From Candidatus Poseidoniaceae archaeon (GTDB taxonomy: Archaea > Thermoplasmatota > Poseidoniia > Poseidoniales > Poseidoniaceae), in contig JASLKC010000006.1 in the NCBI GenBank assembly GCA_030747785.1, positions 1-39,734 on the forward strand: a DNA stretch of 39,734 nt, read 5' to 3'. This document shows, in pieces, positions 17,301 to 33,449 of this stretch (the stretch's first letter is position 1; each line of letters starts with the position of its first letter). Made by a program: the position numbers and the translations under genes. Below the pieces are notes generated by a model. That model ran no database searches. It worked only from the letters and a program-made list of their open reading frames with translations, and was not told the DNA's origin.

Positions 17301-17358
17301 TTCTCCGTTGAAAGGAAGAAGAATTTTGAATCCCCTGAAGGATTTCCTTATGGTCCAA
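14332..17358 (-). CDS. Fused LivH-LivM branched-chain amino acid ABC transporter permease
   Basis: A 1008-residue protein joining both permeases that are normally separate. Residues of about 20-115 hold three or four extra hydrophobic helices of unknown role. LivH follows (GLVWGATYLAIAAGLTLTYK, GNFAQSEYLVFGAYIALSM, ADNPDLAAASGIN) and ends with LMLLPKGIGDAAEKW. A linker of about 150 residues contains two more helices, then LivM begins (FSLNLHTGYSGMTNFGVIFF, GRILRAIREDEEVTQHHGHN) and ends with LAPKGMLPEV. The open frame extends to 17397, but AGGAGGAGG stands four bases before a TTG at 17358, so translation almost certainly starts there. It lies 146 bases after the binding-protein gene and overlaps livG. 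Confidence 0.92.
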   Translation of the reverse strand: MDHKEILQGIQNSSSFQRRIVISLLLLFDGWLGLRHDFGLISFLPQMTGEYLQLNDLYWMAQCTELLGAGMVLIHTVSKGIDGKFGTFFRLSSPLLIIGLFALCIESLMLGMGEQAIISINIANHGFTGLVWGATYLAIAAGLTLTYKVQRYGNFAQSEYLVFGAYIALSMMWSDHFWPQVDAPKDEVLNWNLLLWASLAGFLLTGLLGALMDLVVMRRFRSKGASPQVMMIASLGVAMMLRAALYLRYGSSTELFVPDKDWRLSTSKWEIDTVVHKFTFGVRDSIPFHEEAEKVFGLAWYKAALIIGVFASVLALLMLMNGTRLGRKMRAVADNPDLAAASGINIERVHFTSSFLSAGLSGFGGVLFAMTTRMNPEVGLTILLPAFAVIVLGTIGSVRGAIFAALIVGFVRSLSQPVLVGLGRPLDRPTISGMDEIMPYFFLIAVLMLLPKGIGDAAEKWRIERLRARVDSGKPPLSDKLPFDIHRFKEILKRPIRVIEGVVDLVLIPIQQAMTRINPVITNLQFKVKSTYSTLGEKITPAYEKLNFSKEDSLPTPQGTLFLCFLLLGSGMILTKSWLWGLLLAGPIIWFGVVKVDSPWRLKIPRGREQAAGSWITFVLLIAIMLSLAWSIPSVSNHSKWMGMARLVALLGIFTILSFSLNLHTGYSGMTNFGVIFFASIGAITVGLMSAGYGWYWWQGLLLVVPIALVIGWLLAYPTANLRMDYFAIVTISLGEIVRIALASEPLLRAGTNTSAIGISRYELPFEPWWDSTGSEWFGEALNLGKEAPYQIVIGLFSLFCLLLVWGVLSLMLRAPWGRILRAIREDEEVTQHHGHNVFRMKAGSLAIGAVIAALGGALWAWLNAGIFPDFMSPVNSTFLIWAAFIVGGKASNKGMVAGAFLVVLMNMLFTAFSTAQNDTEHGLYFVVEWLNSSLDWVIRDFIPDMFASDRAIGESFVKSEIKATLSYVKLLMIGFIIVITLHLAPKGMLPEVPYRPEPISEGSDDDE

Positions 17359-17432
17359 TTTTCCTCCTCCTATATGCGTCACCCTATTGAATTTCAATCC
17401 TTGGAAAAGCCATTTGAGAAGTGGGAGAGCAC

Positions 17433-17501
17433 CACAGCGGGCCGAAACCCGCTGTGATGCAGCCTCGGTCTTTCGACCGTTATCGACTAGTAACCATTAC
17501 T
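17433..17501 (-). other. Three hairpins in the intergenic region between binding protein and permease
   Basis: Three perfect inverted repeats lie in the 146-base gap: 17433-17456 (9-bp stem CACAGCGGG, 6-base loop), 17466-17479 (5-bp stem CGGTC with GAAA loop when read on the minus strand) and 17489-17501 (5-bp stem AGTAA, 3-base loop). They sit just after the binding-protein stop in the transcribed strand. No T-run follows the strong stem, so a simple intrinsic terminator is unlikely. A 3'-end stabiliser that keeps binding-protein mRNA in excess over permease mRNA is the likeliest role. Confidence 0.6.
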
Positions 17502-17504
17502 GGC

Positions 17505-19916
17505 TTAGTCTCTGCGCATTGCGATTACAGCAGCACCGAGAATTGCGGTGATTGCTAGAATACTGGTGAAGCCGGGCATACCACTGTCTTCAGCATCAAT
17601 AATAACATCTGGCTCATCTACAGGTTCAGACTTCTGAGGTAGAGTAGCATCTAGTGCTCCTCCAACCCAGGTTCCTTCGCATGTGAATACTCCAGCATCA
17701 TCGAAGATACAGACATCATATCCATTTCCTGCAACATCGCCATTTGCATCGAATGCATGCGTACCAGATGCTCCTTCAAACGGACCTTCTTCCATCAGCA
17801 AACCAACTGCCATATTGAGTGGTACACCCATATCCATAACAGATGATATCATGATTGCAGCAACTGTAGCATCGAAGGTTTCAGCGGTGTATATTCCACC
17901 CTCATCTCCTCCAGCTGCAGCGTACATCATTGCGAATCCTGCTGCCATTTCAGCATCTCCGCCACCAGATCGAGGCTTGGTTGCGACCAATCCGTCTAGA
18001 GCAGTGATATCACTGAATTCGCCTCCGAATGCAGAGTCTGCAACACCATCAGCGCCGAATAGGCCAATGTCCAATCCTTGAAGAGCCATCTCTTCAAGAA
18101 TCGCTGCACCATCAGTTGCATAGGACACGAGAACTACCGAATCGCATCCAGCGGATGCGACGCTCTCGACAGTTGCTGCGAAGTCGGTAGCATCCTGGTC
18201 GTATCCGACCATAGTACAAACCTCTCCAGCGAAACTGGAGTTGAAGAAGTCAGCAAGACCGCTTCCGTAGTCGTTGGTCATGTAGATGACTGCTGGACTT
18301 GTGTAAGCAGATGCAGTAACTGCATCGGCAAGAGCACGAGCCTGTAGGTCGTCAGAAGGCACAACGCGGTATAGGAATCCGCCATCATCTGCAGTGGTAA
18401 TTGCAGGTGAGGTAGATGCATAGGAGATCATTGGAACTCCTGCTTCCTTTGCAACAGCAATTGCGCCAAGTGTTGCGCCAGAGCATGCTGCGCCGACGAT
18501 AGCAGTGACGCCAGCATCGATCAAAGATTGTGCAGAGGTTGCTGCAGTTGTACCGTCGCAACCGGAGTCGGCTACAACCAATTCAACATTCATATCATCC
18601 TCTTCATTGAACATACTAACAGCAACTGCTGCAGCGGTTTCGAATCCACTAGAGTAGACCGCAATAGGTCCAGTCTGAGGGGACAATAGTCCAATCTTGA
18701 TATTGGTGACCATGCCAGTATAGGATTTCCCTTCACCCAGGTCCCAGCGGTAATCGCATTCCATATCTCCATCCCAGAATTCACAGATTTCATATCCGCT
18801 TCCGCCAACATCTCCATTTTCATCGAAGGTGTGAGTACCGGATGCGCCATCATATGCTGTACCTACACCAGGTAGTGCAGCGTTGACATCAGCGCCAGCA
18901 GCACTGTCTGCTGCCATGATTGCATTTCCAAGAACCATAACAGCGTCGAAAGTTTCTGCGGTGTAAATGCCGCTAGCATTTCCACCAGCAGTCTCGTATG
19001 CTGCTGCAAAGTCTGCAGAAGCTTGAGAGTCTCCTGCTGCTGCAGGCTTGGTTGCTATCAAATCGTCAGCAGCCGATGGGTCTGAGAACGCATCGAAGAA
19101 AGCAGCGTCTGCGACACCATCTGCTCCGAGAGTCACCATATTTACTCCCTGTAGTGCCATCTCTTCCATGAGAGCGGCACCATCAGTTGCGTAGGATACC
19201 AAAAGAACACCATCACATTCTGAAGCAGATAGGCTTTCGATAGTTGCTGCGAAGTCGGTAGCATCTTGGTCGTAGCCAATCTTTGCACAAAGGTCATCAT
19301 CACCATTGTATGCTGCATCAAAGTTGTCAGCAAGACCACTTCCGTAGTCGTTGGTCATGTAGATTACACCCACGTCCATGGCGTCTGAGTCCATTGCAAC
19401 ATCTGCTAGAGCTAGAGCCTGCAGTGCGTCACTTGGGACAATTCTCCATAGGTATCCAGAATCATCAGCAGTTGTTACTGCTGGAGATGTGGATGCGTAG
19501 GAAACCATTGGCGTGGTTGCTTCCTTTGCAACTGCGATAGCACCAAGAGTCGCTCCAGAGCAAGCTGCTCCAGCGATTCCAGATACTCCAGCATCGATTA
19601 GAGATTGAGCACTGGTTGCGGCTTGAGTACCGTCACAGCCAGAGTCAGCAACAACTAATTCGAATTCCCAGTTATCGGGGTCCATTGCATTCAGTTCATC
19701 GATTGCAACCGCAGCAGCATCCTCAAAGCCGTCAGCGTAAACTGCGATTGGGCCGGTTTGCGGTGATAGCAAACCGATCTTCACACTATTCGCTGCGACA
19801 TTCGATTCAACAGGTTGTGTTGTCAATTCGGTTTCAGACAAAGCGATCTGGCTAAAAGAAGCGAACAGCATCAGCATTGTCATCGTCAGGGTTAGAGTAA
19901 TCTTTCCAAGATTCAT
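17505..19916 (-). CDS. ABC transporter substrate-binding protein with two tandem Leu/Ile/Val-type domains and PGF-CTERM-like anchor
   Basis: An 803-residue surface protein. It begins with a signal peptide (NLGKITLTLTMTMLMLFASF, then SQIALS), followed by two copies of a periplasmic-binding-protein type 1 domain, each opening with KIGLLSPQTGPIAVY and carrying VVADSGCDGT, AACSGATLGAIAVAKEA, MTNDYGSGLAD, GYDQDATDFAAT and VSYATDGAA. The paired cysteines in SGCDG and AACSG could form a disulfide. The C-terminus is acidic linker, then MPGFTSILAITAILGAAVIA and MRRD, the tripartite layout of archaeosortase PGF-CTERM signals. The start at 19916 follows GGAGAG three bases upstream; ATG 19931 is less likely. 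It is the first gene of the importer operon. Confidence 0.92.
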   Translation of the reverse strand: MNLGKITLTLTMTMLMLFASFSQIALSETELTTQPVESNVAANSVKIGLLSPQTGPIAVYADGFEDAAAVAIDELNAMDPDNWEFELVVADSGCDGTQAATSAQSLIDAGVSGIAGAACSGATLGAIAVAKEATTPMVSYASTSPAVTTADDSGYLWRIVPSDALQALALADVAMDSDAMDVGVIYMTNDYGSGLADNFDAAYNGDDDLCAKIGYDQDATDFAATIESLSASECDGVLLVSYATDGAALMEEMALQGVNMVTLGADGVADAAFFDAFSDPSAADDLIATKPAAAGDSQASADFAAAYETAGGNASGIYTAETFDAVMVLGNAIMAADSAAGADVNAALPGVGTAYDGASGTHTFDENGDVGGSGYEICEFWDGDMECDYRWDLGEGKSYTGMVTNIKIGLLSPQTGPIAVYSSGFETAAAVAVSMFNEEDDMNVELVVADSGCDGTTAATSAQSLIDAGVTAIVGAACSGATLGAIAVAKEAGVPMISYASTSPAITTADDGGFLYRVVPSDDLQARALADAVTASAYTSPAVIYMTNDYGSGLADFFNSSFAGEVCTMVGYDQDATDFAATVESVASAGCDSVVLVSYATDGAAILEEMALQGLDIGLFGADGVADSAFGGEFSDITALDGLVATKPRSGGGDAEMAAGFAMMYAAAGGDEGGIYTAETFDATVAAIMISSVMDMGVPLNMAVGLLMEEGPFEGASGTHAFDANGDVAGNGYDVCIFDDAGVFTCEGTWVGGALDATLPQKSEPVDEPDVIIDAEDSGMPGFTSILAITAILGAAVIAMRRD
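17655..18701 (-). repeat. Binding-protein domain repeat, unit 2
   Basis: The second unit opens at IKIGLLSPQTGPIAVY after the short linker SYTGMVTN. It keeps the same conserved blocks as unit 1 and ends with a GxGYDVCIFDD segment that matches GSGYEICEFWD at the end of unit 1. The end coordinate is approximate. Confidence 0.85.
18702..19784 (-). repeat. Binding-protein domain repeat, unit 1
   Basis: The first of two protein-level repeats of about 350-360 codons in the binding protein, opening at VKIGLLSPQTGPIAVY. Blocks of 10-17 residues are identical to unit 2, while many third codon positions differ, so conservation is at the protein level and the duplication is not recent. Confidence 0.85.
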
Positions 19917-19970
19917 AGTCTCTCCAACCATGGGTCATGGGCGCGCTACTTGAACATATCACCGTTTAAC
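19917..19970 (-). promoter_or_regulatory. Promoter and short hairpin leader of the binding-protein gene
   Basis: Read on the minus strand, GTTAAAC (19970-19964) is a TATA-like box. Its centre is 27 bases before 19940, where CCATG-ACC-CATGG (19940-19928) forms a perfect 5-bp hairpin. If transcription starts there, the leader is 24 bases: hairpin, then TTGGAGAGACT, then ATG. The same design occurs at 31658-31712 and 35716-35770. Confidence 0.5.
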
Positions 19971-20011: not shown

Positions 20012-20965
20012 TCAATTCCTTTTCACTATTGCCGCTAGGGAAATAGCAAAGATTACTGCGAAAAACCCGAGAGCAGGTAAGCCCTTTTCCGACTCCTCTG
20101 GGCAAGAACAATCCACAGGGTCTCTGCTTGAGCCATCCCAGCACAGGTCTTCAGTACAGATTACAGGTTCGGGCTCATTCACAGGTTCAGGCAGCACGAT
20201 TTCATGGATTAAGTGAAGCTCCAAATCATCACCATCATGTGCATCTGGTATAGTGATGTTAGCGGTGCCACTCAATTGATCACCAAGAGGAATAATATCA
20301 CGAACAATATGAGGATAGTCTCCTTGACCATTACCACCATCCGCAAAGGATGCCATTTGCTCAACGACCCAAATACTAGATGAGATACTTGCGTTTTCAG
20401 GTAGGACTGAAGAGTCGATAATCAAGTTCCATGATACACTTCCATTACTCCAGATGAGGGTAGAACTACCATCTCCTAATTCCAGTGCAACTTCTGCATT
20501 TTCGATGAAATCAGCCTCAAGACTTTCGCCATGAGGTACACTGCCAATTTGGCGTATTGTTCCATTGAAAACAGTCGTTGGAGGGATTCGGTTGGTGTAT
20601 CGTGCGGCCCACCTATCATCTCCGACTTGTGTGCCGAAGGGGTCCTCACTCTCTCCGATGAAACGATGGAAATGATATTGTTCAATTGATACATTATCTT
20701 CGATATTATTCATGGCGTGTTCTACATCAACACAATTCTCACACCAAGTTGCAGTATAATCTTCGACGACGGCTGGAAGCGCCGAAAGCATTGCACTAGC
20801 ATTTCCATTTGAATTTGCCATTACATGAACCCCGCCAAATACGGCTCCGACCGTTTCCAAATGCTCGGCCTCTGCTGCATCTACAGGAGGAATCAGTGCG
20901 ATGAGAAAAATGAAAATCATCGCGATTGCACGATTGCACATATTGGGGCGGACACATAGGTCCAT
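20012..20965 (-). CDS. Exported thioredoxin-fold protein with C-terminal membrane anchor
   Basis: A 317-residue protein with an N-terminal hydrophobic signal (IAMIFIFLIALIPPVDAAEA). A thioredoxin-like domain follows with the redox motif WCENC (Cys75 and Cys78) after VVEDYTAT, and NRIPPTTVFNGT containing the likely cis-proline loop. The second half is a beta-rich domain of unknown type. A Cys-rich acidic linker (CTEDLCWDGSS, CSCPEE) leads to GLPALGFFAVIFAISLAAIV-KRN, a membrane helix with a basic end. It is probably anchored outside the cell and acts on disulfides, possibly including those of the neighbouring binding protein; that link is inference. ATG 20965 is chosen; 21016 and 20941 are alternatives. 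It diverges from the addB-like gene. Confidence 0.78.
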   Translation of the reverse strand: MDLCVRPNMCNRAIAMIFIFLIALIPPVDAAEAEHLETVGAVFGGVHVMANSNGNASAMLSALPAVVEDYTATWCENCVDVEHAMNNIEDNVSIEQYHFHRFIGESEDPFGTQVGDDRWAARYTNRIPPTTVFNGTIRQIGSVPHGESLEADFIENAEVALELGDGSSTLIWSNGSVSWNLIIDSSVLPENASISSSIWVVEQMASFADGGNGQGDYPHIVRDIIPLGDQLSGTANITIPDAHDGDDLELHLIHEIVLPEPVNEPEPVICTEDLCWDGSSRDPVDCSCPEESEKGLPALGFFAVIFAISLAAIVKRN

Positions 20966-20990
20966 TTTGAATAATCCCCACGGATAAGTC

Positions 20991-21013
20991 GCGGTGGGTT
21001 CAAGAACCCCCGC
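20991..21013. promoter_or_regulatory. Palindrome in the divergent region between the thioredoxin-fold and addB-like genes
   Basis: GCGG-T-GGGTT-CAAG-AACCC-CCGC gives nine base pairs with one bulged T. It contains the perfect dyad GGGTTCAAGAACCC at 20996-21009. It could be an operator shared by the two divergent genes or a hairpin in the helicase-nuclease leader. The AT-rich stretch at 20964-20975 may hold the plus-strand TATA box. Confidence 0.45.
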
Positions 21014-21043
21014 CATCGAAGGGAAGCGTTCGGCGGTGAAGAT

Positions 21044-24000
21044 ATGCTTTCGGTTTCAAGCACTTGTGAGACGGGTCTCTCTATGGAGGCCGTTCCTGCA
21101 GGTACGGGGATGCCCGATTGGCTTGTCGAAGGATTGTTGGAAGGCCGCCGGTTGATGGTAATACATCCGACCGAAGAAGCGAGAAAGCAAGCGATAATTT
21201 CTATTCAACACAGGTTGGGCGGAGGTATAGTTGATACAACTCATCATTTGACCATGGAGAGGTTTCTCCACATTCTTCATCTCGATTTGCGACTACCTGC
21301 TCTTTTGGAGGATGATGGTGTACTTTTCGAGATGTGCCATGAGGCGTTGTCAAAGGCAGCAACTGAATTCAGATTACCACTATTACAATCAAATCCTACT
21401 CATCGATGGAGTAGGACTCGTAGCCATAGGCTTCTAAGCTTGCATAGGGCGGTGATTGGCCTATTGCGCCCATGGGATTGGGAGGATGACCCTGGTGCAA
21501 GAGAGTGCGACAAAATTCTCAAAGAACTCGAAGAAAAAACGGGATCTACCCACCCTTCACGTATTTCAAAAGCAGTATTAGATGCGATAAAACAGGCGCA
21601 AAGTGCACCGTTTACCCTTAGTGAAGTGCAGGGTGTTGTAATCCTCGACCACGCGCCGGGCATGTCAGAAGTAGACCTAGCAATTCTCTTAGAAACCTCT
21701 AGACTCAAAGCCGTGCATCAATTGGTTAATCCAGGGTCACATCGGCTTGGATTTCATGGTGAATATATCGAGGATATTCACCCTATCAGGGCGAATGAAG
21801 AATTGCCGGAATGGATCCCAACGCACGAAGTTTGGGCTCCTTCACTAATCGATTGGTCAATGAGAGAAGACCGTACTATTCATCACATCTTAGTCGAACG
21901 TAATAGCCATGTTCCAGACGCTGTTGCAAACCTTCTACGAAGTTGTTCTGAAGATGTCTTAGTAGTTCATGGCGATTCAAAGAATTTGAAATCTCGATTA
22001 AGCACGCATCTCAATGATCTAGGCATTGAAATCCGTCCTGAATCAACCCCAGTATCTTCTACTCCTGGTGTTGCAAGAATCATTTCATTATTGGAGGTTT
22101 CAAGAGGAGAAGAGGCGTGGTCACTTGAATCACTACGTGATATTGTAGACCAAGTAGGACTACCTTTACTCTGGCCAATACTTTCGATGGAACATCCTAC
22201 AGAAATTGATTGGACTCCAAGAGTTCATCCAGAAGTTATGGCAGAGGTTGCTCGCGGATTCCATCTACTAGGGGGAAGGGGTTCCTTGAGAAGATGGCTC
22301 GGAACACTTGGAGAAGCGAGCCCGCGGCCAGGTATCAATCCTGAGCGAAGAGCAAGAGAACTCGAAGAATGCCAGTGGTGGCTCGCCAGTTTAGCACGAT
22401 GGATGTCACCTGTATTGCCCGAAGAGGACAGGGTGGTAATACAGGACCAAATCGTTGGTTGTTCAAGTGGGGAAAACCTACCTCTTCCCGATGTGCCAAG
22501 CGATGTTATGGCATGGTATGACTCCTTGATGGAGCAAATCGATTGGGAGACATTGGCCTCTCGTGATATGATTGCCACAACTACAATTCCTGGAATTCAA
22601 TTACTAACAGAGGCGATACAAACTCACCTTAGCCGGACCAACGTGGAGTTAGAAGCGGATGAATTCCTTGAGATTATCAGTTCCTTAGCTGATGGAGCAA
22701 GAATACCAGCTCGTAGAGGAGGCGACCAAGGCCTGAGAATTCTCAGCCCTGAAAACGCACTAGGAGTTAATGCAGAAGTTCTAATTCTGTGCGGAATAGA
22801 CTCTGAAAGTTGGTCGATGAAGACCCCTTCAGTACCATGGTTGGATGAAGCCGATAGAATGAAATTGGGAATTATTCGCCCTGACGAACCTCTTCGTCGA
22901 GGAAGACATCATCTCAGGCATTTACTCAATTCTGCATCTACAGTAGTCATCATAGATTCTACAATGGAAGACGGAAGAGAATTTTCAGCCCCACTGGATG
23001 AATGGTTTTCGACATTGACGCGCCAAGGTTTGACCGATGGCCTCGAAACTCCTCCACCATTCCTTGAGGCAACATCATGGCATCCAGATACACGAGATAG
23101 GGCATGGGTTTGGCAAACAACAGGATTTGGAAATCGCCTAGTCCATCGAATCACATCGATGAATGATACAGGTGATAATTTCCGAACACACCGCAGTGGT
23201 GATTTGAGTCGAGATTATCGTCAAAGAGCGGGCCTTGCAACCCTTGAGGGCCGAACTCCATCTGGAGAAATACTAGACATTTCCAACTTGAATCCAGCCG
23301 GAGAGCGTGAATTACTTGAAGATCAATATTCACGTCGTGCAACAGGCGATGATATCCCCTCAGGAGATGTATTTCCATATGCAGAATCAGAATTTCTCAT
23401 GCGAGGAAATTCACTAAAGTTACTACCGAATAATACTCGTAAAGCCGAAGGCCGAAACGCCCCACAATGGCCGCATCTTGGGTTCATGGGCGAAAAGTAT
23501 CTCAGTTTGGGAATAGACCCTCGCCCAATCACACCTCCTCATATTGGAGCCAGTGGAATCGATGGACGTACCGGCCGTGGAGAAAACACTCTTCCGATGC
23601 CTGAGGCCTGGTCACAGGGCAGAATCCAGGCTTGGCTAGAGTGCCCACGTCGAGCTTGGTTCGATCGGCACCTCTATGCCGGTAGTAAGGAAATGATGCG
23701 CGAGGACTTAGACGGACGTTCACGTGGAGATTTAATCCACCAAGTTGAACAGGCTTTGCTTGAAGCCCATGGCTTAGAAAATGAAGTGATTTCAGAGAAT
23801 GGAATACCATTGCATCTTGGGCCAATTGCTGAAATTGAAGATGCGTGGAATACCGTATTAGAAACTCTCGCAATCGAAGCAACTTGGATGAGACGCGGAG
23901 ATGGAATTGCAGCACATCGATGCCGAGACCTCATTGGAGTTCCGCCTGCAATCTGGCTTGCTTGGTTAGAGGACAGAGATATTCTCCCGGTACAAGGCCG

Positions 24001-24730
24001 TCTTGGACGAATGCTAAATGCAGATAGGGAATTAGTCGATGCTGCACCAATCGCAGTAGAGTGGTCTGTTGGCGGTGGACCACGTGACTCGATTGAAATC
24101 GACATCCCACCTGCTCCAGAGTCGCCCGATGAACCAACAGGATCTTTCCGACTTCGCGGTCGAATCGACCGTGTTGACGAAGTCTTAGTTGACGACCAGT
24201 ATCTCGACCCCACTGCTGATACGATTGTACCATTAGATTCAGATTTCAACTCTGATTTCAAAGTAAAACGCTTCGTAATAATTCGCGATATTAAATCAGT
24301 TGAAGGCTCAGGTGATGATGGTAAACCAACAAGGCACCTCCAAGGCTTGTTCGAAGGGGTCCAATTGGCCCTCTATGCACGTGCTTGGGAAATTGCAAAT
24401 CCTGGCGACAGGGTCGTTGGGGTTGGAGTGACGCAGGTTGGAAGTAGTACAGCGCACTATCTCGAAACCGATCCAGATTTCGCAGAGATGTTGAGTGATT
24501 TGGAACTCGGCGAAAGAAGCACCGTTACTCACGCACAATATCGCCGTCCCGGCGAATCAGCAACACCTGCATCAAACCCATTCCGTGCATGGATGCGACA
24601 GCGTCTTTCAACATCTTTACGTGCAATTACAGGTGCTGAAGAAGGGCGAATACACCCTGAGCCATCATCGAAATGCAGTTTTTGCCCAATCAGTGAATCT
24701 TGTCCTAGTGCAGAAGGAGGTTCTTTCTGA
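21044..24730 (+). CDS. addB: AddB-like helicase/nuclease subunit with Fe-S PD-(D/E)XK nuclease
   Basis: A 1228-residue protein resembling AddB of the AddAB end-resection complex. The C-terminal third is a RecB-family nuclease: first cluster cysteine C867 (LECPRRAWFDRHL), RSRGDLIHQVEQALLEAHG, catalytic GRIDRVDEV near 1040 and RDIKS (D1082, K1084), QLALYARAWEI, and final cysteines C1211, C1214 and C1220. The CX2CX5C spacing is what I recall for AddB iron-sulfur clusters. The N-terminal part is helicase-like but has no Walker A (GRRLMVIHPTEEARK stands where it would be), so this subunit probably does not use ATP. The ATG at 21044 follows GGCGGTG. Its stop and the next start overlap as TGATG, so both subunits are likely made together. 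Confidence 0.8.
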   Translation: MLSVSSTCETGLSMEAVPAGTGMPDWLVEGLLEGRRLMVIHPTEEARKQAIISIQHRLGGGIVDTTHHLTMERFLHILHLDLRLPALLEDDGVLFEMCHEALSKAATEFRLPLLQSNPTHRWSRTRSHRLLSLHRAVIGLLRPWDWEDDPGARECDKILKELEEKTGSTHPSRISKAVLDAIKQAQSAPFTLSEVQGVVILDHAPGMSEVDLAILLETSRLKAVHQLVNPGSHRLGFHGEYIEDIHPIRANEELPEWIPTHEVWAPSLIDWSMREDRTIHHILVERNSHVPDAVANLLRSCSEDVLVVHGDSKNLKSRLSTHLNDLGIEIRPESTPVSSTPGVARIISLLEVSRGEEAWSLESLRDIVDQVGLPLLWPILSMEHPTEIDWTPRVHPEVMAEVARGFHLLGGRGSLRRWLGTLGEASPRPGINPERRARELEECQWWLASLARWMSPVLPEEDRVVIQDQIVGCSSGENLPLPDVPSDVMAWYDSLMEQIDWETLASRDMIATTTIPGIQLLTEAIQTHLSRTNVELEADEFLEIISSLADGARIPARRGGDQGLRILSPENALGVNAEVLILCGIDSESWSMKTPSVPWLDEADRMKLGIIRPDEPLRRGRHHLRHLLNSASTVVIIDSTMEDGREFSAPLDEWFSTLTRQGLTDGLETPPPFLEATSWHPDTRDRAWVWQTTGFGNRLVHRITSMNDTGDNFRTHRSGDLSRDYRQRAGLATLEGRTPSGEILDISNLNPAGERELLEDQYSRRATGDDIPSGDVFPYAESEFLMRGNSLKLLPNNTRKAEGRNAPQWPHLGFMGEKYLSLGIDPRPITPPHIGASGIDGRTGRGENTLPMPEAWSQGRIQAWLECPRRAWFDRHLYAGSKEMMREDLDGRSRGDLIHQVEQALLEAHGLENEVISENGIPLHLGPIAEIEDAWNTVLETLAIEATWMRRGDGIAAHRCRDLIGVPPAIWLAWLEDRDILPVQGRLGRMLNADRELVDAAPIAVEWSVGGGPRDSIEIDIPPAPESPDEPTGSFRLRGRIDRVDEVLVDDQYLDPTADTIVPLDSDFNSDFKVKRFVIIRDIKSVEGSGDDGKPTRHLQGLFEGVQLALYARAWEIANPGDRVVGVGVTQVGSSTAHYLETDPDFAEMLSDLELGERSTVTHAQYRRPGESATPASNPFRAWMRQRLSTSLRAITGAEEGRIHPEPSSKCSFCPISESCPSAEGGSF

Positions 24731-27700
24731 TGATACGTTTGAATCGCTCGCAAACTTTGGGTTTGGATCTCGACCGCCATACCGCATTAGATGCTGGTGC
24801 TGGAACTGGGAAAACCACTGTGATGTCTTTGCGATATGTACAGCATTTATTGAGTTCTATTCAGAGAGCGACAAGAGTGTTACCTGCATCTCCAAGAACG
24901 CCATTACAGGGAATGGGGGCGATTCGTTGCCCAGCGCGTGAAAGAACTTCTTTGAAAGATTGGCAAGGCCTGCTGCCATCTGAAACCGTGGCAATTACCT
25001 TCACGAGGAAGGCTGCTGCTGAATTGAAAGGCAAGATTCGCGGTCTAATTTCCAATCTTAGAGCCCAGCCTCCAGTCTCCGGTGACGAAGATGGAATTCA
25101 CGACCCACGACTTTCAGACCAAGGAGATGTCGAGATGTTGTTATCATTAATCGATGACGCACCAATTTCAACGATCGATGCATTCCTATCTTCGATTACT
25201 GGGCCTTGGATTGGCTTGGTTAGCGAAGACCCCGCCGGTGAGCAGATGGAGGAAGAAGGCTCTATTCTTCTACGTGAAGAAGCGATTCGAACCGCATGGA
25301 GATTACAACGAGGAATGGATGGAATCGAAGCCGGAATGAGCGGTGATATCGAAGCATTCCTTGAGGCTAGAGACCGCTTAGCAGTACGATTAGGCGGACA
25401 GAGGAGCTCATCAGTAGTTGTTAGAGGCATGCTCAAACGTTCTCTATTTGTTGAGGAGGCACAACGTCGTCTTAGGCGCAGAGCAGAGGGTCGAGAAGTT
25501 ACAGTAGAGATTTTAGAGGAATTATTCACCGAGCCGGTAGAAGGAATTCTTGATGAGTTCTTCCCAGTATTCCATCAGGCTGTTCGAGCATGGGTAGATA
25601 CTTGGTTGGATGGAGGGGCGTCATTCGTTACATTGGGAGATGTACCCGAAGGTGTTACGCGCTATCGCTGGATAGAGCACCTTTGCTCTCTCCCTATGCC
25701 CGATAGTGAAATCATGCAATTGCAATGGGTTTGGCATGTCACTCATGCTATGTGCACTCCTACTAATGCAATCAAACAAGATTGCAAGGCTTTGACACGA
25801 GCTCGTCCCCCTAAGTCGAAGGGTTGGCCTTCTGGCGTGGCGACAAAGGGCGCAAATACCACTCTTTCAAATGATGTTAAGAATCTAATTTGCGCAAATG
25901 CTGAGGCTGCAGCTGAAGAGATTAGAGCATTGCTAGTTAGTAGCGAGGGTTTGTTGGTTCGCCGTCTTGGAAGAGCTTCGAATTTACTTTGTCCAGCATT
26001 GCCCGACCCAACTCCCGTACCCGACTCAATTGCTCATCCACCCCGAATTGGTATCGAAATTCCACAGTTGCCAAATCCCGCTGGGGCACGTTTAGAGAGT
26101 GAATTAGAACTCGAAGTAATGCGAGATCTATTCACCGTACATAATGGAGTTAGAGAGATATTATCGCGCCTCAAGACGCAGGACGGAGTACGTGACCACG
26201 ATGACATACATCGATTGGCAGAGGATTTGTTACTTGCGCGTTGTCCTAGCGTTTGCAGACGCTGGTATCCTACTTCAGTAATTGATGCACTAGATTCGAT
26301 GAATAGCGACCCTTGGTTAGATGACCATTTACATCGCGCAATAATAGCAGCCCAAGGCGAAGAGGAAGTTCTGCAGGACCTCGGTCGCCGAATTGAGATT
26401 CTAAGAGATATGAGGAGAAGATTCCGGGCTTTCATCATCGACGAATATCAAGATACTAATCCCCAGCATTTCCGACTTCTCGCAAGATTGTGGGGGCGAC
26501 GAAAACTCGAGGAGAGCGAGCTTGCAGCACCTGCAGGTGAATGGGATCCAACTATCTGTATTGTTGGTGATATGAAACAGTCGATATATCGGTTTAGACA
26601 AGCCGAAGTTACTGTGATGAGAACCGCGGTCGAATCTATTCGACGAATGAATGTTGAAGAGGGCATGATGGAACATCGATGTGCTGACTTACGCCGACCA
26701 GATGCTGCACGTGACCCAAGACCGATTCCTGGGAGTGGCGGCACAGGGTCGACTTTTACCACAGCCACTCTATTGGCCAGTGAAGATTCACAACGGGAAG
26801 AGTGGATTTCATTCAGTCTTGATGACGATGGCTCCACTCTATCCCCCGAGGCAATCGCTCGTAGAAGCGAGGGCCATATTGAGATGAGGACCAATTACCG
26901 AACCCTTCCACGTTTGATGCGAACGATGAATGGAATATTCAGTGATACTTTCGATTCCCGTCACCACCTCTTACCCGGGCCATGGCATGCAAATTCACAG
27001 GATTTGGAGCCCGGCAGAGAAGGGACTAGAACAGCGGCATTGGAATGGATTTTGCCTACGAGAGTTGGCTCTGAACCAAGGCCAATGGACCCTGAAGTAG
27101 CGATTGACCCGTTCTTACATGTGGGTTCAAGCGATAGGGACCTTGGTGCAGATATGTTGGCAAAGCGCCTATCCGCATTACTTGAAGGAGGCACTGCAAG
27201 AGTATGGTCGGCCGAAGATTCTCATTGGAGGAATGTCGATGAGGAGGCAGGACTAGTTCGCCCAGAAGACATCATGATCTTAGTTTCTTCAAGGGCAAGA
27301 ATTCCAGCATTAATACAAGCATTAGATGCACATGGTGTACCAGCGATGGCCGACCGTCAAGGAACTCTGCTCACACGACCAGCGATTCAACCTTTGATGG
27401 CATTACTCGACCTCTTTTGTAATCCAAATGACAAAAACGCAGCCCTCGATGTCGCTAGGTCATCCATTGTGGGAATGGATGATGGACAAATCAGTTTGAT
27501 GTTAAGGGAAGGAGATGGCAACTGGCTAAGCGAAATGGCACAAAGAGTGGAGTCAGTCCGCTTGACAAAGTTGTTGAATCGAATGGAGAGTCAGGTAGTG
27601 AATGGCGATATCGTTTCAGCGTTGACAACTGCGATTGATCACTCAGACCTACTCTATGCATATCCAAGAGAAAGCGACCGCCAAGACATCGAAAATTGGA

Positions 27701-29595
27701 TGGCTTTACGATTGCGAATCGCAGGCCAAGTCGGCGATGATTCCGCTTCGATTTTATCTCGATTAAAGAGACTGAAAGCCCTTGGTGCTGAAGGCCCTTC
27801 GAGTGCTTGTGAGACTGTCGGGGGAGCGGTTAAAATTATGACAATACACTCTGCTAAAGGACTCGAATCACCAGTCGTTGTACTCTTTGATTTGTTCGCT
27901 ACGGGTTCAAGAGATGCACAGTTTTCTTCGCGAGACAATGTTCTGGTAACCACTGATATTATCGCTGGAAGAATACAACCTTGGCCAAATTCAGTAAAGC
28001 CGAATAGCGGTTTGTGGGAACTCGCTCATCTGATGGATGATGGTCAACAAAGAGCTGAGCGAAGACGCCAATTCTATGTTGCACTTACCAGAGCTGAAAG
28101 CCGCTTGATTCTCGTTGGTACCCCCAGCCGAGGTGCTACATCAGCAAGTGACGGTAGTATCTCAGTCCAGAGAGGAGAAGGTAGGCAGAATATGGGTCAA
28201 ATGTTCCTCGATGGTTTGGCCGCGATGTCATTGGAGGCTGGAACAGAGGATTCATGTTGGTCACAAGGAGGACTCGACCAGTCTGGAGCAGTTCTCAGCC
28301 TTGACCCAGGTGCACTATTACTCGATGCAGGAATTGGCGAAGAAGGTGTGGCTGGAATTACGATTTTCCACCATCCCGATTGCTTTAGTACCCAAATTAG
28401 AACATCTCCTCTAAATCGATGGCGTCAGCGATTAGAATTAACGGAATTAGCGACTTCAGCCACACCACAGACCGCACAGCGTACCCTCACTCATTCGATT
28501 TCACTAACATCTCACAGTCTTGACACAGCGAACTCCTGTCGCCGCCGACATTGGTTGAGCACACGTCTTAATTGGAATTCTGAGCGCTTTGATTTGGTAA
28601 GGGAGTCCAGGGGGACAGATTACTGGCCGAGCGCTACAGAATTCGGCAGTTTATTCCACCGATTACTCGAAATTGGCCTTCCCAACCCCGGTTCTGATTC
28701 AAGCGTCGGACTGGATACTACGTGGTGCGGCACTCAACCAGATCTTTTGATGGATGACAATACGATGGGAGAAGTACTCGCCCAATCTAGCATCATCGAT
28801 GAAGAAGCATTAGAGAGAGTAAAATTACGATTATTACATCTTGCTAAATTGACTCGTAATGGCGCCTTAGGTCGATTGACCCGAGGCGAGGAATTCGATG
28901 GAATGACAGTCGAAGGTTTGAGAACCGAATTACCATTCCACATCATTCATTCAACCAATGCAGGACCTATTTCACGTGGCATATGGAGTCCCGATGGAAT
29001 CCTAGAGCGAGCAATCGTTGAGACCGTCGAGACGATTTTCGATGGTAGAGCCGATTTGGTATTGGCGCTAAGGGATAATGAGGGCAAAGGATGGTTACAG
29101 GTTGTCGATGCAAAAACCAGTGGATGTCTTAACGGATTTAACCCAGTAAGTCCGCTTGAAGGAACAGAGCTTCAACTCGTTGGAGAGGAGAGTTCTCCTC
29201 ATCCTACAACCCCGGCAGAAGAAGAAATTCTGTACAAACACCGATTGCAACTCGCTCTGTATTGTCTTGCCCTTGAGATGGGCGAGTCGACCAAACCAAG
29301 CGACCAAAGACGAGAGATTCTGCCGCCTGCGATATTGGTGGGCGCAAGTGGTCGAATGATTCGTTTAACCGATACAGAATTCGATGCGGCCAAAACCCAA
29401 CTCCTAGAATTACTAGATTGGATGGGTCGAACTTCTGCTGAAGGCGAGGGGGCAACTCCACCTTCTCGTTTGCCTATGGCCGAATCTGAGCCATGTAGAA
29501 GTTGTCCATTCAATGCTGGACACATCAAATTGTGCGGTCCTGAAGGGACCCCACTCGGCCCAGCATCGCAAGAGTCCCAGGAAATTCACCCTTAG
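24730..29595 (+). CDS. addA: AddA-like UvrD/RecB-family helicase-nuclease with Fe-S signature
   Basis: A 1621-residue superfamily 1A helicase fused to a RecB-family nuclease. Helicase motifs are Walker A GAGTGKTT at 23-30, motif Ia AITFTRKAAAELKGKI, Walker B FIIDEYQDTNPQ near 567, motif III VGDMKQSIYRFRQAE, motif IV region EMRTNYRTLPRLM, motif V VKIMTIHSAKGLE near 1035 and motif VI RRQFYVALTRAESRL near 1113. Nuclease residues are GRADLV (D1442) and VVDAKT (D1460, K1462), then LQLALYCLALEM. Four cysteines, C1270, C1589, C1592 and C1602, look like an iron-sulfur staple, which AddA normally lacks. It is longer than typical AddA (about 1230). The 3' end overlaps the convergent methyltransferase by 71 bases. 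Confidence 0.87.
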   Translation: MIRLNRSQTLGLDLDRHTALDAGAGTGKTTVMSLRYVQHLLSSIQRATRVLPASPRTPLQGMGAIRCPARERTSLKDWQGLLPSETVAITFTRKAAAELKGKIRGLISNLRAQPPVSGDEDGIHDPRLSDQGDVEMLLSLIDDAPISTIDAFLSSITGPWIGLVSEDPAGEQMEEEGSILLREEAIRTAWRLQRGMDGIEAGMSGDIEAFLEARDRLAVRLGGQRSSSVVVRGMLKRSLFVEEAQRRLRRRAEGREVTVEILEELFTEPVEGILDEFFPVFHQAVRAWVDTWLDGGASFVTLGDVPEGVTRYRWIEHLCSLPMPDSEIMQLQWVWHVTHAMCTPTNAIKQDCKALTRARPPKSKGWPSGVATKGANTTLSNDVKNLICANAEAAAEEIRALLVSSEGLLVRRLGRASNLLCPALPDPTPVPDSIAHPPRIGIEIPQLPNPAGARLESELELEVMRDLFTVHNGVREILSRLKTQDGVRDHDDIHRLAEDLLLARCPSVCRRWYPTSVIDALDSMNSDPWLDDHLHRAIIAAQGEEEVLQDLGRRIEILRDMRRRFRAFIIDEYQDTNPQHFRLLARLWGRRKLEESELAAPAGEWDPTICIVGDMKQSIYRFRQAEVTVMRTAVESIRRMNVEEGMMEHRCADLRRPDAARDPRPIPGSGGTGSTFTTATLLASEDSQREEWISFSLDDDGSTLSPEAIARRSEGHIEMRTNYRTLPRLMRTMNGIFSDTFDSRHHLLPGPWHANSQDLEPGREGTRTAALEWILPTRVGSEPRPMDPEVAIDPFLHVGSSDRDLGADMLAKRLSALLEGGTARVWSAEDSHWRNVDEEAGLVRPEDIMILVSSRARIPALIQALDAHGVPAMADRQGTLLTRPAIQPLMALLDLFCNPNDKNAALDVARSSIVGMDDGQISLMLREGDGNWLSEMAQRVESVRLTKLLNRMESQVVNGDIVSALTTAIDHSDLLYAYPRESDRQDIENWMALRLRIAGQVGDDSASILSRLKRLKALGAEGPSSACETVGGAVKIMTIHSAKGLESPVVVLFDLFATGSRDAQFSSRDNVLVTTDIIAGRIQPWPNSVKPNSGLWELAHLMDDGQQRAERRRQFYVALTRAESRLILVGTPSRGATSASDGSISVQRGEGRQNMGQMFLDGLAAMSLEAGTEDSCWSQGGLDQSGAVLSLDPGALLLDAGIGEEGVAGITIFHHPDCFSTQIRTSPLNRWRQRLELTELATSATPQTAQRTLTHSISLTSHSLDTANSCRRRHWLSTRLNWNSERFDLVRESRGTDYWPSATEFGSLFHRLLEIGLPNPGSDSSVGLDTTWCGTQPDLLMDDNTMGEVLAQSSIIDEEALERVKLRLLHLAKLTRNGALGRLTRGEEFDGMTVEGLRTELPFHIIHSTNAGPISRGIWSPDGILERAIVETVETIFDGRADLVLALRDNEGKGWLQVVDAKTSGCLNGFNPVSPLEGTELQLVGEESSPHPTTPAEEEILYKHRLQLALYCLALEMGESTKPSDQRREILPPAILVGASGRMIRLTDTEFDAAKTQLLELLDWMGRTSAEGEGATPPSRLPMAESEPCRSCPFNAGHIKLCGPEGTPLGPASQESQEIHP

Positions 29596-30154
29596 GGGCC
29601 GCTTGCCATATTTTGACTTCAGTAAATCCAGCATCTACCATGGCCTCTTGCCATTGAGATTTTGAAAGAGTAGTCATGTGAACGCCTACATGTTCAGGCC
29701 AACCTAGACTGTCCTTATTTTCACGATAATGATCGACCCCAGCAACGAGTAATCCACCCTCTGTTAACCATTCATCATGGATTGTTTTGAGCATAGAGGC
29801 AGGGTTGTGGAGATAGTAGAGAAATTCCATCGAATGAACCAAATCAAATTTTCTCGCTGGTGACCAATCGGGTAACATAGCGTGAGTATAGGTGCTATTA
29901 TCATCGATTGAATTAGCTTTAGCAATCATCTCAATCGCTCCATCAACACCTTCTGTATGCCCCGCTCCCATTTCCTTGAGTAATCGGACTACCCAGCCAT
30001 TACCACATCCGAGGTCGATTGCACTAAACCCGTTTTCAAGCATTGGAATAACCTCGTCAAGCATCTCGGAAACCGAGGGAGCATGACCTATTTCCATGCC
30101 GCTATCCTTGCCCTTAAGCGCCCATTCGGAGAAGACCTCAGTCGCATGACGCAT
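29525..30154 (-). CDS. Class I SAM-dependent methyltransferase
   Basis: A 209-residue Rossmann-fold methyltransferase. Motif I is AIDLGCGNGWVVRLL, the acidic ribose-binding residue is in TEGVDGAIEMI, motif II region is FDLVHSMEFLYYL, and motif III-like LTEGGLLVAGV precedes a C-terminal strand-rich end (DAGFTEVKIW). The substrate is not apparent; LVHSMEFLYYLHNP is common in small-molecule methyltransferases. ATG 30154 is chosen because a TATA-like element centred 26 bases upstream would give a leaderless message; TTG 30184 extends the frame. The last 71 bases overlap the end of the addA-like gene on the other strand, so the two proteins' C-termini are encoded by the same DNA. Confidence 0.85.
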   Translation of the reverse strand: MRHATEVFSEWALKGKDSGMEIGHAPSVSEMLDEVIPMLENGFSAIDLGCGNGWVVRLLKEMGAGHTEGVDGAIEMIAKANSIDDNSTYTHAMLPDWSPARKFDLVHSMEFLYYLHNPASMLKTIHDEWLTEGGLLVAGVDHYRENKDSLGWPEHVGVHMTTLSKSQWQEAMVDAGFTEVKIWQAAPKGEFPGTLAMLGRVGSLQDRTI

Positions 30155-30174
30155 ATCACTACGCTTCTCCGTCT

Positions 30175-30186
30175 GGTCTATCAACC
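30175..30186. promoter_or_regulatory. Shared bidirectional TATA-like element for two divergent, probably leaderless genes
   Basis: GGTCTATCAACC sits with its centre (30180.5) 25.5 bases from the plus-strand ATG at 30206 and 26.5 bases from the minus-strand ATG at 30154. Archaeal TATA boxes lie about 26 bases before the transcription start, so both messages would begin at their start codons. Neither start has a good Shine-Dalgarno at normal spacing, which fits. Confidence 0.45.
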
Positions 30187-31657: not shown

Positions 31658-31712
31658 TTGATATGTGGGACAGAGGTGGGTAGTTGTGAAGGCGTAGCCT
31701 TCGGTGAGTAAG
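31658..31712 (+). promoter_or_regulatory. Promoter and short hairpin leader of the coiled-coil gene
   Basis: TTGATATG (31658-31665) is TATA-like, with its centre 26.5 bases before GAAGGC-GTA-GCCTTC (31688-31702), a perfect 6-bp hairpin. GGTG (31703-31706) follows directly as the ribosome-binding site and the ATG is at 31713. A start at 31688 would give a 25-base leader. Confidence 0.5.
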
Positions 31713-32594
31713 ATGTCCGAGAACGGTACCATCACGCCAGAAACCCAGATTAAGGACCTCACAGAGCGACTTGAGTCGGAAACAGAGCGTCTTCTCAAGC
31801 TCTATGCTGCATATGAGCAGCAAGAGAAAGAACTCCTCGACACCAAGGCTGAGGTAGAAGTTCTTGAGAAGGAAATCGTCGACCGAGAAATCGAGAAAGA
31901 AGGTCTTCAAGCCCTTCTTGCTGAGAAAGATGCTCGAATGAGAGATATCGAACTCAAGGCTAGCAAGACCGGAAAGCAGGTCGAGCACCTTGAACCTGAA
32001 CTCCAGAAGATGGAAGAAAAGTTTGCACGTGAGAAAGATCGACTCGGCAAGGTTTTCTCAATCGCAGAAGAACTCGATAACGACTTGCGACTCGCAGTGG
32101 TTGAACTTCAGTCCCGTGACGGGTGGTATATGGAACACATGTCACTCTTTGAGGATCTCAATAAGGCAATCAAGTTGCGTTATGAGATGATTGAAAAGGC
32201 AGTCGAAGCAGAGCGTGAATCCCAGCACATGAACCGTGCAATCACCGACCGTATGGATGAATTAGTCGAAGCAAGAGCTGCTGAGATGACCCTCGAAGAG
32301 GCTTCAGAAATCGATGCTACTGAATCCGCTTCTGTTGCCGAGGCAACCGAAGAGGCTGGCGATGATGGCGATGAGGAGGATGACGAGTGGAAGTGGTCCG
32401 AAAGCGTACTCGAAGGAGTCATGAGTAAGAACGGAATCACCGACCGAGACGCCTTTATCGAATTTGCAAAATTATACGATATGGATGGCAACCGCTACCT
32501 CAAGGGAAGTGAACTTGGAGCAGCAGCGGCCGAATTTATCGCACAAAATCAATCCGAGGAATCATCTGCAGAAGATACTTCGGAAGACCAGTGA
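31713..32594 (+). CDS. Coiled-coil protein with C-terminal EF-hand-like loop
   Basis: I do not recognise a named family. The 293-residue protein has a long heptad-rich coiled coil over residues of about 10-105 (ERLESETERLLKLYAAYEQQ onward), a second helical part to about 195, then a very acidic low-complexity linker (AGDDGDEEDDEWKW) and a small helical domain. The loop DMDGNRYLKGSE fits a canonical EF-hand calcium loop with D, D, N, Y, K and E at positions 1, 3, 5, 7, 9 and 12. It has no signal peptide or membrane helix, so it is likely cytoplasmic and perhaps a scaffold. ATG 31713 follows GGTG; GTG 31704 is an unlikely longer start. The next gene begins nine bases after its stop. Confidence 0.75.
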   Translation: MSENGTITPETQIKDLTERLESETERLLKLYAAYEQQEKELLDTKAEVEVLEKEIVDREIEKEGLQALLAEKDARMRDIELKASKTGKQVEHLEPELQKMEEKFAREKDRLGKVFSIAEELDNDLRLAVVELQSRDGWYMEHMSLFEDLNKAIKLRYEMIEKAVEAERESQHMNRAITDRMDELVEARAAEMTLEEASEIDATESASVAEATEEAGDDGDEEDDEWKWSESVLEGVMSKNGITDRDAFIEFAKLYDMDGNRYLKGSELGAAAAEFIAQNQSEESSAEDTSEDQ

Positions 32595-32603
32595 GGTGAG
32601 AAC

Positions 32604-33449
32604 TTGAGTCTATTAGCCCGAGGTGGGCTACTGCCCGTTTTGACACCAACTCTGATGGGTATTGGTTTCATCACGGTAGGAAGTTTAGTCAATCCACTTG
32701 GGGGAATCGCTCCAGGACTTGGAATACTTATGCTGCTCATTGCAGTATTTTTCGCCAATTTTTGGCGAGACCCAGACCGACCTATTCCTCGTGATGAAGG
32801 CGTAATAGTTTCACCAGCCGATGGCCATGTGATGTTCGCACGCAGAGAGCGCGCCACAGGCCGCAGACCTTCTAAGGCCGAAATGGCTGAGGCTGAAGAG
32901 GATGAATTCACAGGAACATGGCACCCCGAAGCATGCAAAGAGATTCTGTCCTTTGAAACCGAACAACGCTTTGAAGCAGTTCCCGAAGGTGAAGAATCCA
33001 AAGACGATGTTTGGCGAATTGCTGTATTCATGTCTCCAATGGATGTCCATGTTAACCGCTCTCCAATCGCTGGAGAAATTATCAGGATGGAACACCGTAC
33101 TGGCAAGGGAAGGCGTAGAGGCCCATTCTTGGCCGCTTACCGTAAGGAGAGCGAATTCAACGAGCGAGTTCGCTCATTATTCAAGCGAGCAGATGGATTG
33201 ATTATCGAAGTCATGCAAATCTCGGGAGCATTAGCCAGAACAATCATCCCTTGGGTTTCAGAGGGAGCCACGATGAGGAGAGGGGAGCGCTTCGGCATGA
33301 TTCGGCTCGGTAGCCGAGTCGATGTGCGAGTTCCTGCAGCGCAATTCGAAGTCAGCGTTATTTCTGCAGAGGACGGCGACTCCAACCATCCAAAGGGTGA
33401 ATTTGTCAAGGCGGGATCGACAATTCTGTACAGAGAGGTGAAAGAATGA
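32604..33449 (+). CDS. asd: Archaetidylserine decarboxylase (phosphatidylserine decarboxylase family)
   Basis: A pyruvoyl-dependent decarboxylase that converts archaetidylserine to archaetidylethanolamine in archaeal lipid synthesis. Two N-terminal membrane helices (about 8-55) end in FWRDPDRPIPRDEGVIVSPADGHV, the family's opening signature. VFMSPMDVHVNRSPIAGEI holds the conserved histidine, and RLGSRVDV near residue 235 is the self-cleavage motif whose Ser becomes the pyruvoyl group. A charged insertion of about 45 residues after the PADGHV motif (EMAEAEEDEFTGTWHPE) is unusual. Translation starts at a TTG preceded by GAGGTG five bases upstream. It follows the coiled-coil gene by nine bases and overlaps the next gene as ATGA, so these three are probably one unit. 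Confidence 0.9.
   Translation: MSLLARGGLLPVLTPTLMGIGFITVGSLVNPLGGIAPGLGILMLLIAVFFANFWRDPDRPIPRDEGVIVSPADGHVMFARRERATGRRPSKAEMAEAEEDEFTGTWHPEACKEILSFETEQRFEAVPEGEESKDDVWRIAVFMSPMDVHVNRSPIAGEIIRMEHRTGKGRRRGPFLAAYRKESEFNERVRSLFKRADGLIIEVMQISGALARTIIPWVSEGATMRRGERFGMIRLGSRVDVRVPAAQFEVSVISAEDGDSNHPKGEFVKAGSTILYREVKE

Follow-up and report, generated by a model that had tools for sequence, protein, structure and literature searches.

The window considered here, i.e., a 39,734-nucleotide stretch of contig JASLKC010000006.1 (assembly GCA_030747785.1), derives from a Candidatus Poseidoniaceae archaeon whose genome is 1.83 Mb long and 86% complete. It carries two plus-strand open reading frames (ORFs), at 21044-24730 (1228 amino acids) and 24730-29595 (1621 amino acids), which a first-pass annotation had read as an AddAB-like helicase-nuclease operon in an archaeal genome. 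Both ORFs were recovered at exactly these coordinates and, as judged from sequences and predicted structures, the pair is confirmed as an AddAB-type operon, in which AddA is predicted to associate a motor of helicase superfamily 1A (SF1A) with a RecB-type nuclease, and AddB a helicase-like body with an intact nuclease. Surveys of related genomes suggest that this pair is probably the DNA-end resection machine of the order Poseidoniales. Its elements are as follows:

21044..24730, + strand: addB, AddB-type subunit of 1228 amino acids, with a helicase-like fold without visible Walker A motif and a C-terminal four-cysteine PD-(D/E)XK nuclease
21044..23608, + strand: helicase-like region of AddB, residues 1-855, no Walker A by eye, fold match to AddB chains, boundary approximate
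23609..24727, + strand: nuclease domain of AddB, residues 856-1228, with H899, D1042, D1082-x-K1084, Q1107 and Y1111, and cysteines C867, C1211, C1214 and C1220
24715..24720, + strand: AGGAGG, Shine-Dalgarno-like site for addA within the 3' end of addB, seen in the sequence nine bases ahead of the addA start
24728..24732, + strand: TGATG stop/start overlap, the addB TGA (24728-24730) and the addA ATG (24730-24732) having one base in common
24730..29595, + strand: addA, AddA-type superfamily 1 helicase-nuclease of 1621 amino acids
24793..24816, + strand: AddA motif I (Walker A), AGAGTGKT, residues 22-29, from the alignment; G25, G27, K28 and T29 kept in 59/59 sequences
26440..26460, + strand: AddA motif II, DEYQDTN, residues 571-577, from the alignment and the motif conservation count
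26563..26601, + strand: AddA motif III, VGDMKQSIYRFRQ, residues 612-624, from the alignment and the motif conservation count
28063..28095, + strand: AddA motif VI, RRQFYVALTRA, residues 1112-1122, from the alignment and the motif conservation count
28513..29535, + strand: nuclease domain of AddA, residues 1262-1602, with H1310, D1442, D1460-x-K1462, Q1507 and Y1511, and cysteines C1270, C1589, C1592 and C1602

From the TGATG overlap at the junction, translational coupling of the two genes appears likely. The identity of the subunits was examined with profiles, folds and motifs. In Pfam, AddA matched UvrD-helicase (1.7e-27), UvrD_C (1e-18) and PDDEXK_1 (1.9e-9), while AddB matched PDDEXK_1 (2.3e-15); in NCBIfam, AddB matched addB_alphas at only 1.1e-3. 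As single sequences searched against PDB, AddB gave nothing at E <= 1 and AddA gave AddA (5.3e-12) and UvrD1 (8.2e-12), almost tied. With profiles, the best match of AddB was AddB 3u44_B (1.1e-31, residues 63-1135), followed by AdnA (7.4e-14), the profile being made of 24 archaeal rows (10 from Poseidoniales and 14 from other Thermoplasmatota families). Likewise, the AddA profile, made of 20 rows all from Poseidoniales, matched AddA 3u44_A best (8.8e-41), followed by AdnB (2.7e-25). Both subunits therefore rank with AddAB ahead of AdnAB, which bears out the family assignment of the first-pass annotation. The predicted structures gave the same ranking in Foldseek. For the AddB model (residues 29-1228, mean predicted local distance difference test score, pLDDT, of 82.5), five AddB chains came at the top (6.7e-20 to 1e-17, best template modelling (TM) score 0.54), followed by AdnA (5.8e-14) and RecC (5.4e-10). 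For the AddA model (residues 1-1195, nuclease excluded, mean pLDDT 85.8), the top matches were four AddA chains (8.6e-30 to 2.2e-24, best TM 0.51) and then RecB (2.3e-23).

Conservation was counted in the window proteins and the full-length ORFs kept from 80 named loci, which gave 58 AddA and 54 AddB sequences (45 pairs being common to both counts) after removal of ORFs that contained X, were incomplete at one end or fell short of the minimum lengths; for AddA, the start was chosen by aligning each ORF with the protein of the window. The 23 counted helicase and nuclease motif positions of AddA were identical in 59/59 sequences, and its RecB-type nuclease residues H, D, D, K, Q and Y were kept in 59/59. 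In AddB, H899, D1042, K1084, Q1107 and Y1111 were kept in 55/55 sequences, position 1082 being D in 52 and E in 3. Because the counted positions are conserved across relatives, the motifs of both subunits go beyond chance. No Walker A motif was visible by eye in the helicase-like body of AddB in a 19-row alignment.

The Poseidoniales pair is, by its sequences, a variant of AddAB with an enlarged AddA whose nuclease, in many members, carries a candidate iron-sulfur (Fe-S) motif. About 370 lineage-specific AddA residues were found in 18 stretches (filled in >70% of 11 Poseidoniales rows and <25% of 22 others), in keeping with the distinct AddA subunit that had been suggested at first. The cysteines of AddB were highly conserved (C867 in 55/55; C1211, C1214 and C1220 in 53/55). 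In AddA, of which the window protein carries the full set of four, three cysteines were found in 58/59 sequences and the fourth, C1602, in 51/59 of these closer relatives. Across genera, the tail motif was complete in 11/19 representatives; since this holds for 6/9 in one Poseidoniales family (f1) and 5/10 in the other (f2), it is frequent, not universal. The full motif was lacking in the Paenibacillus AddA, the Escherichia coli RecB, and the haloarchaeal, f11, f17, f30 and f37 AddA compared, f30_a and f17_c having only the first cysteine (the f numbers denoting families). A four-cysteine motif of this type was also present in f32, in one Deinococcus plasmid protein and in UvrD-Cas4 fusions, and a Picosynechococcus plasmid protein carried a tail CxxC..C.

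AddA was detected in 140/145 and AddB in 137/145 Poseidoniales genomes, each in 21/21 genera sampled; among the 33 genomes of high quality, these numbers were 32 and 31. AddB lay directly upstream in 53/58 loci with a full AddA, and 43 of these 53 pairs overlapped by 1 to 10 bases. Among the best 80 of 305 relatives in named genomes, the titles were Poseidoniales, Poseidoniaceae, Poseidonia, Euryarchaeota and uncultured euryarchaeote, with one Flavobacteriales, and the closed Marine Group II chromosome CM001443.1 was one of the 80; this almost uniform set agrees with the Marine Group II host proposed earlier. The record titled Flavobacteriales bacterium (L117), whose AddA is 62% identical to that of the window, is probably a mislabelled bin. 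Synteny was followed in 100 loci, i.e., 20 representatives (10 per family) and the 80 named loci, 7 representatives recurring among the latter; flanks were often short, and a match tells that the gene occurs within the stretch, not that it lies immediately next to the pair. Two flanking genes, common to both Poseidoniales families, mark the locus:

20012..21016, - strand: secreted thioredoxin-like (WCENC) protein without Pfam match, divergent neighbour and synteny marker outside the machine, in 19/20 representatives and 74/100 stretches
31704..32594, + strand: protein without Pfam match, downstream synteny marker outside the machine, in 19/20 representatives and 86/100 stretches

Hence, other Marine Group II genomes keep the pair at a conserved locus. 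Between these markers, a methyltransferase ORF (29525-30184, - strand) overlaps the 3' end of addA tail to tail by about 70 bases. Its homologs were found in 73/100 related stretches, with 8/10 f1 and 0/10 f2 representatives, while an M20 peptidase was found in the stretch of 0/10 f1 and 10/10 f2 representatives.

The descent of AddA was examined with a tree built by a quick method from 11 Poseidoniales, 13 other Thermoplasmatota, 3 UvrD-Cas4, 2 haloarchaeal and 7 bacterial rows, which carries long-branch and uneven-composition warnings; four of 20 further loci were left out of it, namely the truncated L075, L077 with its split frame, L085 and L086. The phylogeny that had been called for gave a clear answer within the order, the 11 Poseidoniales rows lying on one side of a branch with a Shimodaira-Hasegawa-like approximate likelihood ratio test (SH-aLRT) value of 100 and a long stem (1.58), and an indecisive one at depth, where the placement of AddA had a support of 48 in a tree with only seven bacterial rows. 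The approximately unbiased test did not reject one clade uniting the archaeal AddA, divergent f17 rows excluded (p-AU 0.187, one grouping tested). Within the order, two f1 rows (g9 and g10) join f2 rows. Distances of AddA and AddB correlated at 0.98, which fits joint vertical descent. Given its presence in 140/145 and 137/145 genomes and in all 21 genera, with common neighbours, AddAB is a core pair of Poseidoniales and no recent bacterial import.

The standard archaeal resection model is set out in passages of PMC12977600 and PMC7690668, and Mre11/Rad50 are termed universally conserved in a passage of the latter review; in Sulfolobus islandicus, none of the four mre11 operon genes is dispensable for viability (PMC4351679). 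A point missed in the first-pass annotation is that HerA-NurA and Mre11-Rad50 went undetected by profile searches in Poseidoniales beyond weak matches. NurA was found in 0/145 Poseidoniales genomes (controls 7/14 positive) and SbcD in 0/60 (controls 13/14 positive, 8 above the cut-off). Because the Rad50 zinc-hook model PF04423 was uninformative (2/145 Poseidoniales, both below the cut-off; controls 3/14), dedicated profiles were made for Mre11 and for Rad50, with three sequences apiece. With these, Mre11 was matched in 0/27 Poseidoniales genomes vs 88/99 other genomes in the same search. Rad50 matches were obtained in 25/27 Poseidoniales genomes at 5.9e-4 to 1.2e-7 (2 without match), and were tentatively read as SMC-level, given that values of 1e-9 to 1e-20 are attained by long SMC-like ORFs in other genomes. 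The HerA central domain gave weak matches in 19/27 Poseidoniales genomes (best 1.9e-12) and none in 8, the matches listed being mostly partial and in ORFs of about 700-900 amino acids, while most other genomes outside the AddAB families reached 1e-20 or better. RadA was above its cut-off in 60/60 Poseidoniales genomes, showing that they are complete enough to reveal such a gene. The surprising part is thus a near-universal AddAB in an order without detected standard archaeal resection genes. Within the open-licence literature and the limited wording searched, no report on Mre11 and Rad50 in Marine Group II was found. As to haloarchaea, HerA and NurA are said in a passage of PMC7776575 not to be present in Haloferax volcanii, and a loss of nurA toward haloarchaea is inferred in part of PMC7599335; contrary to the former statement, the NurA model PF09376 was positive in our H. 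volcanii controls.

The survey was then widened to 243 genomes of the phylum Thermoplasmatota, of which 57 had NurA (controls 6/14) and 100 had AddB by a strict rule (E <= 1e-15, match starting before profile position 650) that was set after seeing the table. The latter comprised 62/64 Poseidoniales genomes and 38 outside the order. AddB and NurA occurred together in 0/243 genomes, where 23.5 would be expected if they were independent (Fisher 3e-16), and outside Poseidoniales in 0 vs 12.1 expected (7e-8). Because genomes are related, only the family-level figure is near independent: of 39 families (39 being the highest family label seen, and a family being scored if any sampled member was positive), 9 had AddB, 18 had NurA, 12 had neither and none had both (p 0.0016). 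At a loose threshold (E <= 0.001), 14 NurA genomes also matched AddB, weakly (E >= 1.2e-13) except G210, whose match (9.2e-17) covered the nuclease part only, match positions having been seen for G154 and G210 only. In the Mre11 search, eleven genomes outside Poseidoniales had no match; seven of them are in AddAB families (f28, f17 and f11 with two each, f32 with one), and the others are two from f3, one from f16 and one from f34. As the f28 and f32 genomes keep HerA-domain matches, the loss of all four genes is clearest in Poseidoniales. Two f3 genomes of the same class, G212 and G222 (90% and 92% complete), were unmatched for AddA, AddB, NurA, the HerA domain and Mre11 altogether.

AddAB enzymes load on a DNA end, are driven by the AddA motor, cut both strands with their two nucleases, scan for Chi and leave a 3' tail for the recombinase. 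By analogy, the Poseidoniales complex would load on a double-strand end, and AddA would pull the DNA through. The 3'-ended strand would be cut by the nuclease of AddA and the 5'-ended one by that of AddB, which would also scan for a Chi-like signal with a regulatory role; a 3' tail would result and be handed to the archaeal RadA. In Poseidoniales, AddAB would thereby stand in for Mre11-Rad50 and HerA-NurA. We give a probability of about 0.78 to this reading, i.e., that an AddAB-family heterodimer is the end-resection machine of the order, feeding RadA in replacement of both standard systems. A broader scenario falls somewhat short of even odds: AddAB would be an old archaeal alternative to HerA-NurA, no sampled Thermoplasmatota family having both, and Poseidoniales would have lost Mre11-Rad50 too, so that RadA would be supplied by a single large AddAB variant, both nucleases of which would hold Fe-S clusters in many members.

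Several points weigh against the resection reading. In NCBIfam, recB (8e-38) was slightly ahead of addA_Gpos (9.2e-37) for AddA, and both subunits scored far below the curated cut-offs (126.4 bits vs 707.65 for AddA, 17.1 vs 486.5 for AddB), the names of these models referring to Gram-positive and alphaproteobacterial subgroups. In addition, 14/24 rows of the AddB profile come from families outside Poseidoniales, the fold searches gave only moderate similarity (TM about 0.5, root mean square deviation, rmsd, of 9-13), the lead of AddA over RecB in the fold ranking is small (2.2e-24 vs 2.3e-23) and the tail cysteines of AddA are incomplete in 8/19 representatives. In the 126-genome search, Mre11 was matched in members of the AddAB families f11, f17, f19 and f30, several of which also match the HerA domain, so AddAB is not always a replacement. 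In family f16, the HerA domain was found and NurA undetected, hence the NurA model may miss members; more generally, Mre11, Rad50, HerA and NurA were sought with profiles in genomes that are incomplete, and divergent versions of them may have been missed. Finally, the activity, the interaction and the heterodimer of AddAB are predicted only.

Other explanations were weighed against resection by AddAB. The pair could serve mainly against viruses, as a helicase-nuclease that breaks down linear DNA entering the cell, with repair left to other means. RecBCD-type enzymes also degrade foreign DNA, and GajB models of PADLOC pick up the AddA helicase (1.5e-20), though via the common UvrD motor. UvrD-Cas4 fusions of relatives also adjoin DNA methylases (the neighbours of three such loci comprised two DNA methylases and one protein without Pfam or NCBIfam match), and are placed in restriction loci in a passage of PMC5704561. 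However, AddAB is near-universal in Poseidoniales with common flanking genes, its neighbours are housekeeping-like (phosphatidylserine decarboxylase, radical SAM, Obg-like GTPase) with no known defence gene, and no other end-resection machine was found in the order. A mainly antiviral function is thus unlikely, and the phage-defence role considered in the first-pass annotation found no positive support here. It is equally improbable that the pair forms a separate helicase-nuclease class, closer to AdnAB or to UvrD-Cas4 fusions than to AddAB proper. The four-cysteine AddA nuclease of many members, shared with UvrD-Cas4 fusions, f32 and the Deinococcus plasmid protein, and the long stem and low-support deep placement of AddA would agree with such a class, but AddA and AddB lead both the fold and the profile rankings. 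Moreover, each of the two AdnAB subunits possesses a helicase motor, whereas no Walker A is visible in AddB of the window, and the three UvrD-Cas4 rows group apart, with no adjoining AddB.

The first-pass annotation had also considered an acquired bacterial system. As a recent event, horizontal gain of a bacterial operon is very hard to sustain: AddAB is described from bacteria in passages of PMC12977600 and PMC6452273 and the AddA tree departs from the families by the two f1 rows placed with f2, but the pair is present in every genus sampled with its flanking genes, the Poseidoniales AddA rows group together, the plasmid matches listed (40 of 66 records) show identities of only about 22-29%, and the GC content of the pair (0.475-0.490) is within the range of the window (0.437-0.507). 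Overall, the earlier interpretation is partly supported. If resection by AddAB holds true, a machine of bacterial type is able to initiate recombination in archaea, one can test how AddAB is coupled to a recombinase of the Rad51 type, and Chi-like signals in archaea become a question. This would concern an abundant planktonic order that has RadA and AddAB without detectable Mre11-Rad50 or HerA-NurA. A bacterial parallel is offered by one survey, in which RecBCD and AddAB were found together in no more than 16 genomes (PMC6452273).

Elsewhere in the window, genes of a branched-chain amino acid ABC transporter occupy 12343-19931 (- strand), with a binding protein of 808 amino acids (two Peripla_BP_6 stretches and PGF-CTERM), a permease of 1021 amino acids, possibly fused (two BPD_transp_2 stretches), and an ATPase of 427 amino acids. 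The transporter looks like a local addition, because its binding protein was found in 1/100 related stretches (L114) even though 39/54 named loci with a full AddB reach at least 3.5 kb upstream. Downstream of the pair, 32604-33449 (+ strand) encodes a phosphatidylserine decarboxylase (PF02666, 3e-34), here in an archaeon, and 36057-38213 (+ strand) a protein of 718 amino acids with a SAP domain and weak EF-hand matches.

Among known systems, the pair is not a peculiarity of its locus, as haloarchaeal plasmids and other Thermoplasmatota families carry similar ones. In the haloarchaeal plasmids NZ_CP070334 and NC_014298 (L192 and L194), an AddB-like gene precedes an AddA-like gene with an 8-base overlap; their AddA proteins have 1212-1253 amino acids, no tail cysteine motif and 24-25% identity over 35-40% of the query, and the pairs are annotated only as nuclease and UvrD-helicase proteins. 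Further AddA-like genes occur on other haloarchaeal plasmids. Families f11, f17, f30, f32 and f37 have a tandem addB-addA as in the window, with AddA of 969-1335 amino acids, and NurA was unmatched in every genome beyond Poseidoniales that satisfied the strict AddB rule, as it was within the order. Unlike Poseidoniales, most f11, f17 and f30 genomes searched match Mre11, whereas f32 and both f28 genomes do not. No report of AddAB in Poseidoniales or Marine Group II was found in the open-licence literature with the limited wording used, and archaeal AddAB is unreported in the sampled passages on AddAB with archaea or haloarchaea.

UvrD-Cas4 fusions, which occur in mesophilic archaea according to part of PMC5704561, unite an SF1A motor and a four-cysteine nuclease as does AddA of the window; they differ by their size (923-924 amino acids), their own tree group (three rows) and the lack of an adjoining AddB, which the window has. 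AddA matches in f27, f5 and f24 were rejected as AddAB, the single locus examined in each family holding a fusion of this type. HerA-NurA with Mre11-Rad50 would have the same function as proposed here, i.e., 3' tails for RadA, with proteins unrelated to AddAB; NurA was found in 0/145 Poseidoniales genomes, and the HerA domain reached at most the strength of 1.9e-12 in 27. In RecBCD, RecC has no intact nuclease and RecD is a third subunit; in the window, the nuclease residues of AddB are intact and no helicase was found among the neighbours scanned. AdnAB of mycobacteria likewise has two nuclease-bearing superfamily 1-type subunits and ranks below AddAB in profile and fold; AddB of the window shows no visible Walker A, and AdnA and AdnB were not the best match. 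The closest known system is AddAB of Bacillus subtilis (PDB 3u44, 4cei and 4cej), which came first in the profile and fold rankings of both subunits. Both have one motor in AddA, a helicase-like AddB, a PD-(D/E)XK nuclease in each subunit and a four-cysteine AddB, and addB of Paenibacillus is likewise directly upstream of addA. The Poseidoniales version differs by the length of AddA (1621 vs 1232 amino acids, with about 370 lineage-specific residues), by the four-cysteine AddA nuclease of many members, the Paenibacillus AddA being without the four cysteines, by an AddB in which no Walker A is visible, and by its probable partner, which would be RadA instead of the RecA of bacterial AddAB.

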